DNA of 64,000 nt, taken from NCBI RefSeq assembly GCF_003997495.1, contig NZ_RZRU01000025.1:1-64000 (forward strand), written 5' to 3'. Source of the DNA: Mesorhizobium sp. M7A.F.Ca.US.008.03.1.1 (lineage in GTDB: Bacteria; Pseudomonadota; Alphaproteobacteria; Rhizobiales; Rhizobiaceae). Within the stretch, counting starts at the first letter, position 1. Each line of letters starts with the position of its first letter. Made by a program: the position numbers and the translations under genes. Shown piece after piece: positions 7,130-49,687 of this stretch. The notes under the pieces were generated by a model. That model saw only the letters and a program-made list of their open reading frames with translations, was not told the origin of the DNA and did no database searches.

Positions 7130-7924
7130 ATGAGCGGAACAGCAGATCGCAATTCACAGACGCGCGCCATCGTTACCGGTGGCGCCCAGGGCATCGGCTT
7201 CGCCGTTGCCGAAGCGCTGGCCGAGGAAGGTTGCCGGGCACTGGCGCTCATCGGCCGCTCGCAGGAGAAGGGCGACAAGGCCGTTGCCCATTTCAAGAAA
7301 GCGGGCGTCGACGCGATCTTCATCAGCGCCGACGTCTCGAAGGTGGCCGACTGCAAGCGGGCGGTCGCAACCGCGATCTCGCATTTCGGCACCATCAACG
7401 CGCTGGTCAACGCCGCCGCGACGTCGGCGCGCGGCTCGCTGGTCGAAACCAGCGAAGCGCTTTTCGACACCATCTTCGACACCAATGTGCGCGGGCCGTT
7501 TTTCCTGATGCAGGGCGTGGTGGCGCATCTCTTGGAGAAGAAGGCGCCCGGCTCGATGGTCAACGTGCTGTCGATGTCGGCGCATACCGGCCAGTCGTTC
7601 CTGACGCCCTATTCGACCAGCAAGGGGGCGCTGATGACGCTGACCAAGAACGTCGCCAATGCCTATCGCTATAACCGCATCCGTTGCAACGCGGTGCTGC
7701 CCGGCTGGATGGACACCGAGGGTGAGGACATCGTCCAGAAGAAATGGCACGACGCGCCAGACGACTGGCTCCAGAAGGCCGAAGCCGCGCAGCCGATGGG
7801 GCAATTGGTGAAGCCCGACCAGCTGGCGCGGCTGATCAGCTACATGGTCAGCCCGCAGTCGGGCGTCATGACCGGATCGCTGGTCGATTACGACCAGAGC
7901 ATTGCGGGGTCGTCGCCGGAGTAG
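7130..7924 (+). CDS. Short-chain dehydrogenase/reductase (SDR)
   Basis: A 264-residue classical SDR. The cofactor motif TGGAQGIG is at residues 16-23 and the catalytic Tyr161-x3-Lys165 is in YSTSK. It starts 31 bp after the inositol dehydrogenase-like gene and is probably co-transcribed. The position suggests a second oxidation or reduction of a cyclitol or of an intermediate in its breakdown. SDR substrate specificity is not predictable from these motifs. Confidence 0.85.
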   Translation: MSGTADRNSQTRAIVTGGAQGIGFAVAEALAEEGCRALALIGRSQEKGDKAVAHFKKAGVDAIFISADVSKVADCKRAVATAISHFGTINALVNAAATSARGSLVETSEALFDTIFDTNVRGPFFLMQGVVAHLLEKKAPGSMVNVLSMSAHTGQSFLTPYSTSKGALMTLTKNVANAYRYNRIRCNAVLPGWMDTEGEDIVQKKWHDAPDDWLQKAEAAQPMGQLVKPDQLARLISYMVSPQSGVMTGSLVDYDQSIAGSSPE

Positions 7925-8138: not shown

Positions 8139-8205
8139 CCGGGGGCGGTCCCATACTTAATTGGCCTTCATCAGGGCACGTGACAAGCGCCTCCGCTTCG
8201 ACTAT

Positions 8206-8286
8206 ATGAGCCTCATGATCAACCTGACCGCCACATATTGGTACTTTAGGAGCTCGCTGGCGGCGGGAGGATTGCGCTCGATCTGA
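8206..8286 (+). CDS. Aromatic leader peptide (attenuator) upstream of DAHP synthase
   Basis: A 26-codon reading frame ending in TGA, with Tyr-Trp-Tyr-Phe encoded consecutively at 8236-8247. Such a run of aromatic codons directly before an aromatic-biosynthesis gene is the hallmark of a transcription-attenuation leader. A second in-frame ATG at 8215 would give a 23-residue version. No strong ribosome-binding site is visible. Its stop codon lies just beyond RNA segment 2, so a ribosome finishing translation would mask that segment while a stalled one would leave it free. The evidence is sequence architecture only. Confidence 0.72.
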   Translation: MSLMINLTATYWYFRSSLAAGGLRSI

Positions 8287-8335
8287 AGATTGCAGCAACA
8301 AGATCCGAACAGCCGCCATACCTGGCGGCTTTTTT
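8257..8335 (+). terminator. Attenuator: mutually exclusive antiterminator and terminator hairpins
   Basis: Segment 2 (CTGGCGGC, 8257-8264) and segment 4 (CTGGCGGC, 8322-8329) are identical, and both can pair with segment 3 (GCCGCCA, 8312-8318). The 3:4 stem AGCCGCCA/TGGCGGCT has a 4-nt loop and runs into six T residues (8330-8335), a typical intrinsic terminator. The 2:3 pairing is the antiterminator. The terminator ends about 40 bp before the DAHP synthase start. Confidence 0.75.
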
Positions 8336-8373
8336 GTTTCAGCCGGCAGGTTCCCAAACAGGAGCAGAAAGCC

Positions 8374-9465
8374 GTGTTGACCACCACAGACGACCTCCGG
8401 GTCAAGGAAATACGAGAACTGAGTACGCCGGACGAGGTGATGCGGGAAATCCCGCGCACTTTGACGGCGACGCGCACCGTCAGCGCGTCTCGCAACGCAA
8501 CCCATGCCATCTTGAACGGGACCGACGACCGGCTGCTCGTCATCGTCGGTCCGTGTTCGATCCACGATCCGGTCGCGGCCGTCGACTATGCCAGCTGTCT
8601 GGCGGCGCTGCGCGAGAGCCTGTCGGACCGGCTGGAGATCGTGATGCGGGTCTATTTCGAGAAACCGCGCACGACGGTCGGCTGGAAAGGCCTGATCAAC
8701 GATCCCGACCTCGACGGCAGCTTCAACATCGACAAGGGGCTGCGGATGGCGCGCAACGTGCTGTCGGCCGTCAACAATCTAGGCCTGCCGGCAGCGACCG
8801 AATTCCTCGACATGACCACGCCGCAATATATTGCCGACCTCGTCGCCTGGGGCGCGATCGGCGCGCGCACGACCGAGAGCCAGATCCACCGCGAGCTCGC
8901 CTCGGGCCTCTCCTGCCCGGTCGGCTTCAAGAACGGCACCGATGGAAATCTGCGGATCGCCGCCGAAGCGGTGAAATCGGCCGCCCAGCCGCATCATTTC
9001 ATGGCGGTGACCAAGGGCGGGCGCAGCGGCATCGCCACGACCACGGGCAATGAGGACTGCCACGTCATCCTGCGCGGCGGCGTTCAGCCCAACTATGACG
9101 CGGCGAGCGTCGAAGCCGCCGCTGTGGAACTCGCCCGCATCGGGGTTGCGCCCAGGCTGATGATCGATGTCAGCCACGCCAACTCAGCCAAGAAGCCCGA
9201 GAACCAGCCCAAGGTCGCGGCCGATGTCGCCGGCCAGGTCGCGGCAGGCGACGAGCGCATCATCGGCCTGATGATCGAGAGCAATCTCGTCGCCGGCCGG
9301 CAGGACGTGGTGCCAGGCAAGCCGCTGGTCTATGGCCAGAGCATTACCGATGGCTGCATCGACTGGGCGACCACCGAGACGGTGCTGCACGGCCTTGCCG
9401 GCGCCGTCGAATGGCGCCGCTCGGCTAGGCGCGCGATGATCGACAGCCGGCAGGGGGCCGCTTGA
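8374..9465 (+). CDS. 3-deoxy-7-phosphoheptulonate (DAHP) synthase, class I
   Basis: A 363-residue enzyme that condenses phosphoenolpyruvate and erythrose 4-phosphate, the first step of aromatic amino acid synthesis. The class I (AroFGH-type) motifs GPCSIHDP, KNGTDG and DVSHANS are present. I chose GTG at 8374 because GGAG lies 9 nt upstream; an ATG at 8290 would place the N-terminus inside the terminator hairpin. The leader peptide with Tyr, Trp and Phe codons and the terminator just upstream imply control by aromatic amino acid supply. Which of the E. coli isoenzymes it matches cannot be told from motifs. Confidence 0.93.
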   Translation: MLTTTDDLRVKEIRELSTPDEVMREIPRTLTATRTVSASRNATHAILNGTDDRLLVIVGPCSIHDPVAAVDYASCLAALRESLSDRLEIVMRVYFEKPRTTVGWKGLINDPDLDGSFNIDKGLRMARNVLSAVNNLGLPAATEFLDMTTPQYIADLVAWGAIGARTTESQIHRELASGLSCPVGFKNGTDGNLRIAAEAVKSAAQPHHFMAVTKGGRSGIATTTGNEDCHVILRGGVQPNYDAASVEAAAVELARIGVAPRLMIDVSHANSAKKPENQPKVAADVAGQVAAGDERIIGLMIESNLVAGRQDVVPGKPLVYGQSITDGCIDWATTETVLHGLAGAVEWRRSARRAMIDSRQGAA

Positions 9466-32832: not shown

Positions 32833-32909
<77 letters not shown>

Positions 32910-45989: not shown

Positions 45990-47702
<1,713 letters not shown>

Positions 47703-49037: not shown

Positions 49038-49081
49038 ACGAACGCGATGGTCTAGCTTGTTGGGGAAAGGCAGGGTTCGAC

Positions 49082-49687
49082 ATGTACAAGGCCGTTGGAT
49101 CGCGTGGATCCCGGGTCAGCCGCGTTCTCTGGATGCTCGAGGAGCTCGGGCAGCCTTATGAATTCGTCGAGGTTCATCTGCGCTCACCGGAAGCCTATGC
49201 GCTCAACCCATCGGGCAAGGTGCCGATTCTCATCGATGGCGAACTGACAGTGACGGATTCGGCGGCGATCTGCGTTTATCTCGCCGACAAGCACGCGGAG
49301 AAGGACATGGGCGCCAATCCGGGCGTCGCCGGCCGTGCCGAGATGGATTCCTGGATGCATTTCGCCCAGAGCGAGTTCGAGGCGCCGCTGTGGAACAAAT
49401 TGCGCCATCGCTTCCTGCTGCCTAGGGATGTGCGCGTCGATGTCGGTCCTGCGGCGGCTTACGATTTTGCCTCGGAACTGAAGGCGCTGGAGCGGCGTCT
49501 GGGCGACAAGCCGTTTGCTCTAGGCGAGCGGTTTTCAGCCGTCGACGTGCTGCTCGGCGACATGGGTGGGTGGGCGCGTGCCGGCCGGTTTGCGATCGAG
49601 TCCGAACGCGTCAACGCCTATTTCGACCGCGTGCTGGCGCGGCCTGCGCGTGTGCGGGCACAAGCAAATGGGGGATCCATGAAATGA
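49082..49687 (+). CDS. Glutathione S-transferase family protein
   Basis: A 201-residue GST with an N-terminal thioredoxin-like domain ([16 protein letters not shown]), the [12 protein letters not shown] proline motif and [12 protein letters not shown], and a C-terminal helical domain. Its stop overlaps the ureE start (ATGA), so it may be co-translated with ureE. Confidence 0.88.

Follow-up and report, generated by a model that had tools for sequence, protein, structure and literature searches.

In the 64,000-nucleotide stretch of Mesorhizobium DNA analysed here (the window), a short open reading frame with clustered aromatic codons stands just before a DAHP synthase gene, which raises the question of whether the two are linked by transcription attenuation and, if so, which amino acids the leader would read. 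For alphaproteobacteria, little could be found in print on how the first step of aromatic synthesis is controlled. The element (8179-8373) is flanked by an SDR gene (7130-7924) and the DAHP synthase gene (8374-9465); all features of the element and this downstream gene lie on the forward strand. The initial annotation had taken the latter for a DAHP synthase gene, and profile searches agreed: its product matched type I DAHP synthases in PF00793 (DAHP_synth_1; E 3.2e-92) and in TIGR00034 (E 1.5e-155; 517 bits against a cut-off of 173). It starts at GTG 8374 or TTG 8377 and has the Shine-Dalgarno sequence AGGAG at 8360-8364. We call it aroG as a shorthand name, given that its product scored 531.7 against the AroG equivalog NF006723, below the cut-off of 568, and 493.4 against NF009396, a subfamily named Trp-sensitive AroH, above the cut-off of 463.

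A leader of 26 codons had been proposed at first. An ORF of this length does run from ATG 8206 (MSLMINLTATYWYFRSSLAAGGLRSI), and to that extent the proposal stood; as the leader start, ATG 8206 was rejected on two grounds, its overlap with the -10 box CTATAT (8202-8207) and the lack of an ATG at this place in 13 of 55 leaders. The ATG at 8215 was kept in all 55 Mesorhizobium leaders, and on sequence grounds it is most likely the start of a leader of 23 codons (MINLTATYWYFRSSLAAGGLRSI, 8215-8286, stop 8284-8286). Just upstream of the leader lies a promoter motif (8179-8207), in which the GTGAC of the -35 box CGTGAC (8179-8184) is followed, after a 17-nt spacer, by CTATAT, itself 7 nt before ATG 8215; the alphaproteobacterial promoter consensus is CTTGAC-N17-CTATAT. 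Among 33 representatives, the same spacing was found with the script's pattern in 22; in 28, a distance of 7 or 8 nt separated the best -10-like hexamer from the leader ATG. This hexamer shared 5 or 6 of its 6 bases with CTATAT in 22 representatives and was weak, sharing 2 to 4, in the remaining 11. No Shine-Dalgarno-like motif could be observed upstream of the leader ATG in any of the 33. Because of the -10 distance of 7 or 8 nt and the lack of such a motif, the leader transcript is predicted to be leaderless, beginning at the leader ATG.

Four consecutive aromatic codons, Tyr-Trp-Tyr-Phe (TAT TGG TAC TTT), are present at 8236-8247, as first described, and aromatic codons are kept in relatives. 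In a simulation with 8.3% aromatic codons assumed, a four-aromatic run among 22 codons arose by chance with a probability of ~0.0008. The choice of Phe codon was also unusual: the 33 leaders contained 63 TTT and 22 TTC, versus 14 TTT and 185 TTC in the aroG genes that these leaders precede. The p value of this TTT bias, to which the window's own codon at 8245-8247 contributes, was 2e-30 by a statistic that ignores kinship. No clear bias relative to the aroG genes was observed for the leader Tyr codons (p 0.08).

Beyond the control codons, CTGGCGGC occurs twice, at 8257-8264 (segment 2) and at 8322-8329, and GCCGCCA (8312-8318) is able to pair with either copy; these points of the initial annotation were found exactly as it gave them. 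Upstream of the codons, segment 1 (ACCGCCA, 8227-8233) is complementary to segment 2 over six bases, and when this sequence is folded with no ribosome, segment 2 finds its partner upstream of the aromatic codons. Segment 3 (AGCCGCCA, 8311-8318) is common to antiterminator and terminator, and segment 4 (TGGCGGCT, 8323-8330) forms the 3' arm of the terminator. According to alignment pair counts, a second antiterminator helix would be formed by GGAT (8269-8272), facing ATCC (8303-8306). The terminator reads AGCCGCCA-TACC-TGGCGGCT (8311-8330) with T at 8330-8335; its stem and T run, also part of the first description, were recovered at 8311-8335 by a terminator scan of 601 bases, which gave two terminator-like sites (that of the element and one on the opposite strand) against a mean of 0.5 in shuffled sequences. 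The folding energy of the whole element was unremarkable (z -1.52), which would fit a plain promoter-proximal terminator accompanied by a fortuitous ORF. We regard such a coincidence as scarcely credible, considering that the leader codons and both alternative pairings are kept over many families of the class.

On the basis of the ORF, its codons, the alternative pairings, their geometry, their conservation and the promoter motif, all of which were observed directly, we consider it very likely that the element is a ribosome-mediated transcription attenuator of aroG, and aroG would very probably be switched on when Tyr, Trp and Phe run short. The transcription start, the stalling, the termination and the response to each amino acid are what we infer from these features, as follows. 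Transcription would start at or beside ATG 8215, judging from the promoter motif and its spacing, and a ribosome would load on the leaderless 5' end. When charged Tyr, Phe or Trp tRNA is scarce, the ribosome would wait at 8236-8247 and cover segment 1, so that segment 2 stays free; aided by the GGAT/ATCC helix, segment 2 would then pair with segment 3 before segment 4 is made, giving readthrough into aroG. When the aromatic tRNAs are charged, the ribosome would reach the stop codon at 8284-8286, segment 3 would pair with segment 4 and transcription would stop at the T run, the product being an RNA of ~120 nt. If the leader is not translated, segment 2 would fold onto upstream sequence, and termination would be the default. 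The mechanism thus proposed appears to be classical trp-type attenuation.

We analyzed the pairings and their geometry in an alignment of 33 dereplicated element sequences (A1). In the terminator, including its segment 4 arm, 97.0% of cells were paired, with a change from G-C to A-U at one pair in 6 sequences, and the six T columns of the T run were invariant. The antiterminator together with the second helix had 82.2% of cells paired, and 4 of 10 pairs had changed on both sides. The best slid controls reached 62.1% for the terminator and 53.4% for the antiterminator, and shuffled alignments equalled the number of covarying pairs in 15 of 500 and 49 of 500 cases, respectively. For the three inner pairs of the second helix, 75.8% of cells were paired and two of the three pairs had changed on both sides; some sequences, among them L081, L083, L090 and L093, lacked this helix or formed it poorly. 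Because the G+C stem cores hardly vary, covariation is moderate, not strong, and most pairs are uninformative on pairing. The attenuator reading of the initial annotation was nevertheless strengthened by the relatives, which keep the aromatic codons, the terminator and the complementarity of segments 2 and 3 while other positions change.

In 29 of the 33 sequences, 8 or 11 nt separate the end of the last aromatic codon from segment 2, a gap that fits the forward edge of the ribosome footprint. This distance from the aromatic codons to segment 2 is the constant feature of the leaders, a point that bears on whether the nascent peptide might be arrested as in TnaC, sensing a free aromatic amino acid or a pathway intermediate and not uncharged tRNA. 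The clustered aromatic residues and the partly conserved C-terminus L-A-x-x-G-x-R-S would suit such an arrest; however, Tyr, Phe and Trp interchange and vary in number, as expected for codons that are read singly, and we consider arrest very improbable. Consistent with the attenuator, when the bases under a ribosome on an aromatic codon were masked and the RNA ended after segment 3, folding predictions paired at least 4 of 5 segment-2 bases with segment 3; this held at all control codons in 28 of the 33 sequences, and at some of them in the other 5. The proposal that a stalled ribosome frees segment 2 is hence borne out in these models. With no ribosome, at least 3 of 5 segment-2 bases were predicted to pair upstream in all 33 sequences; the partner lay before the aromatic codons in 21, in the codons themselves in 4 and between the codons and segment 2 in 8. 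Segment 1 is therefore not alike everywhere. In full-length equilibrium folds with the ribosome at the first and at the last aromatic codon, the terminator was open in 56 of 62 genus loci; outside the genus it was open at both stalls in only 10 of 44 loci. Since equilibrium folds there rarely keep the terminator open, antitermination outside the genus would have to be kinetic, taking place before segment 4 is transcribed.

The end of the leader was examined in the 62 genus loci, where the last 11 codons contained one synonymous change (TTA for TTG) and four single amino-acid changes. The C-terminal peptide SSLAAGGLRSI is thus nearly invariant in the genus, which could be expected if the peptide or the short RNA acted elsewhere in the cell and attenuation in cis were secondary, and a precedent exists in Sinorhizobium meliloti, where peTrpL and rnTrpL act in trans (part of PMC7298713). 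On the other hand, these codons hardly change even synonymously, so it appears to be RNA pairing that is kept; the C-terminal peptide varies across families, and the element is tied to aroG. A main role in trans seems improbable to us.

The element is real and conserved, as its conservation among relatives shows. The aromatic codons and stems were kept beside aroG in the comparison with relatives that had been proposed at the outset. In the Mesorhizobium genus sample, aroG was identified in 57 of 61 genomes, and the leader preceded it in all 56 Mesorhizobium loci inspected. When the samples of the family, order and class were added to that of the genus, the leader was seen upstream of aroG in 101 of the 102 genomes examined; in the remaining genome (G652), a contig end cuts the leader off, and a covariance-model match was found near the end of another contig. 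The leader loci numbered 106, including five duplicates (L058-L062) that were left out of the 102 genomes. In one genome (G007) only the gene start was on the contig, and the leader was seen (L056). A fragmented aroG (G042) and a locus with a weak protein match of 19 bits (L108 in G672) were set aside, and the leader pattern was loosened after inspection, which admitted L099 and L100. In four Mesorhizobium loci (L003, L012, L020 and L046), ~55-63 nt of extra sequence, REP-like to the eye, was present between the terminator and the start of aroG.

Which amino acids the leader would read was approached through its codons. All 106 leader loci contained Phe and Tyr codons, and 98 contained Trp; the eight Trp-less leaders were L024, L096 and L099-L104, among which L024 reads Tyr-Arg-Tyr-Phe and L100 contains a single codon each for Phe and Tyr. 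When traced on the AroG tree, Trp presence required 5 changes, of which the starred branches force at least 3 to 4, and the Trp codon has been gained or lost several times. It is plausible that, in this genome, the leader would read all three amino acids, as the initial annotation had supposed. We would give an even chance to a broader reading, in which a shortage of Tyr, Phe or Trp alone would activate the attenuated DAHP synthase, lineages would retune the codons (that is, gain or lose Trp and extra Phe or Tyr codons), and similar gates would act on a type II DAHP synthase, which is not homologous to aroG, and, with a Tyr-rich leader, on tyrS. It is also possible, though we lean against it, that a working attenuator responds chiefly to Phe, or to both Phe and Tyr, with only a minor part played by the Trp codon. 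The universal Phe and Tyr codons, the eight leaders devoid of Trp and its repeated change on the tree all suit such narrower sensing, as does the Corynebacterium glutamicum aroF leader, which has Phe-Tyr-Phe and for which Tyr availability was reported to be irrelevant (in the part of PMC11802643 used here). Against this, a single core position carries Trp in all but one of the 62 genus loci, which include five duplicates (the exception has Arg), and masked folds freed segment 2 equally at all four codons (L001).

To see the element independently of its gene, a covariance model (R1) was built from 33 sequences and the terminator structure; many of these came from the same genomes that were searched, so that the positives are partly so by construction, and the multi-genome runs used stricter filters. 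In the order, R1 matches of at least 60 bits were found in 39 of 297 genomes, exactly the 39 with aroG; in the class, they were found in 14 of 385 genomes, the same 14 with aroG when the 19-bit case of G672 was set aside. The best R1 match away from aroG in the order had 43.2 bits and was a Tyr-rich leader before tyrS. At an E value of 0.01, at least one match, mostly weak, occurred in 163 of the 297 genomes (often the terminator only) and in 113 of the 385. Among the weaker places, 17 stretches were taken, L185 and L186 were left out, and the 15 inspected comprised three tyrS leaders, three trp leaders, one leader upstream of a type II DAHP synthase gene and eight places without a leader. The three trp leaders were detected at 27-30 bits, and trpE was confirmed for two of them. 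A candidate second copy in the window's own genome (G000:C44:11894, 28.6 bits) was rejected, as an ORF ends in this stretch and the terminator there is an ordinary one.

A DNA pattern search of named genomes returned at least 117 stretches; among the 80 listed, 75 were located directly before aroG on the same strand, one was at a locus end (L282) and four were chance matches (L241, L243, L244 and L289). Genera among the matches listed included Mesorhizobium, Bradyrhizobium (B. japonicum and B. diazoefficiens being two of its species found), Phyllobacterium, Kaistia, Devosia, Phenylobacterium and Novosphingobium. One record, named Frankia sp. RB7 (L319), has an aroG 78% identical to that of the window and, like Bradyrhizobium, shows the element pattern in front of this gene; the record is probably misnamed or mixed. 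In the sample of the whole phylum, an AroG match was found in 107 of 200 genomes. Of 17 new AroG loci from other classes, four had a comparable leader (L222, L223, L225 and L226) and 13 had none by the detection script, whose negatives are not exact, as it fails to find the leader in 7 of the 107 upstream regions in the main set (the cut L097 among them). The eight of these loci without a leader that were placed on the AroG tree formed one group (96/86), and gene and leader therefore seem to travel together.

Attenuators of the E. coli pheA and trp type use alternative pairing, control codons and an intrinsic terminator. The present element appears to share this logic; the E. coli leaders, however, each serve one amino acid, whereas Tyr, Trp and Phe codons stand together here. 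The part of PMC11802643 used here names the pheA and trp attenuators and places E. coli aroF and aroH under TyrR and TrpR. The nearest described case, by analogy, is aroR-aroF of C. glutamicum, for which the same part of PMC11802643 describes ribosome-stalling attenuation with a Phe-Tyr-Phe leader; this attenuator is predicted in PMC4046766, where, in the section drawn on, aroF is one of two DAHP synthases. Compared by codons and gene only, both systems have clustered aromatic codons before a DAHP synthase gene; the aroR leader of this actinobacterium is Phe-Tyr-Phe without Trp, in contrast with Tyr-Trp-Tyr-Phe here. Within alphaproteobacteria, S. meliloti trpL uses trp-type attenuation, and its transcript begins with the leader ORF (PMC7298713, in part), similar to the position predicted here. 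Unlike trpL-trpE(G), which has WWW codons only and belongs to the Trp branch, the aroG element has mixed codons and precedes the first common step, and it does not belong to that family.

Start-site mapping in B. japonicum revealed many leaderless mRNAs (parts of PMC4842269), and aroG, attenuation or leader peptides were not mentioned in the main text of that paper. In gammaproteobacteria, a Shewanella aroF motif is listed as an attenuator sensing Tyr-tRNA (PMC2659441) and putative attenuators of Vibrio DAHP synthase-tyrA operons are tabulated (PMC1173090); in the portions of these sources used, they also stand before DAHP synthase genes, and they are computer predictions from another class. 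No description of an attenuator before aroG in alphaproteobacteria was found in the open-licence main texts, as far as these were covered, and an earlier prediction is possible. What appears to be new here is the mixture of Tyr, Trp and Phe codons in an apparently leaderless leader, its spread over several orders and families of the class, and its changeable codon set. The element would be a specific and testable switch in nitrogen-fixing symbionts (Mesorhizobium and Bradyrhizobium) and would also add a new RNA family, a group of conserved leader peptides and, as a prediction, a small RNA of ~120 nt. Should the gate respond to all three amino acids, the natural variants that have or lack the Trp codon would amount to a ready experiment on multi-input attenuators.

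Several related arrangements were observed at other genes. The window's own genome also has a type II DAHP synthase gene (L109), upstream of which no leader was found with the detection script; this second DAHP synthase appears to be free of aroG-type control. In the same genome, an ordinary trp leader ending in IWWWAC precedes trpE(G) (L358, G000:C53, upstream of 67543), in addition to the element before aroG, so the common step and the Trp branch would each have their own attenuator. In the class sample, a type II match was present in at least six genomes with aroG (G000, G495, G522, G560, G625 and G652). Of 32 type II DAHP synthase upstream regions examined in the class (the 30 best-scoring loci, L109, and L187, chosen for its R1 match), a leader was found only at L187 (G643:C67:15000-17000), where MPPAAGALYFARYFTRWYGPAA and a terminator precede the gene (TIGR01358); this genome has a second type II DAHP synthase gene. 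In three genomes from one family of the order (L175, L176 and L177 in G292, G442 and G409, respectively), a leaderless-looking, Tyr-rich leader (MIKTAATFVYFYYVTSIPAAA and variants) with a terminator is followed by the tyrosyl-tRNA synthetase gene tyrS (TIGR00234), and it is probably a Tyr attenuator of tyrS, judging from its codons.

Rfam contained no family, T-box and trp leader included, that reached its gathering score on the element or on the leaders of 20 other loci; a sub-threshold match to RNAI overlaps the element (23.5 bits, cut-off 47). Elsewhere in the window, Rfam matches were observed to the 5' ureB sRNA (46140-46431, reverse strand), the mesorhizobial RNA MH_s36 (49044-49132, forward strand) and a tRNA (32836-32909, reverse strand).
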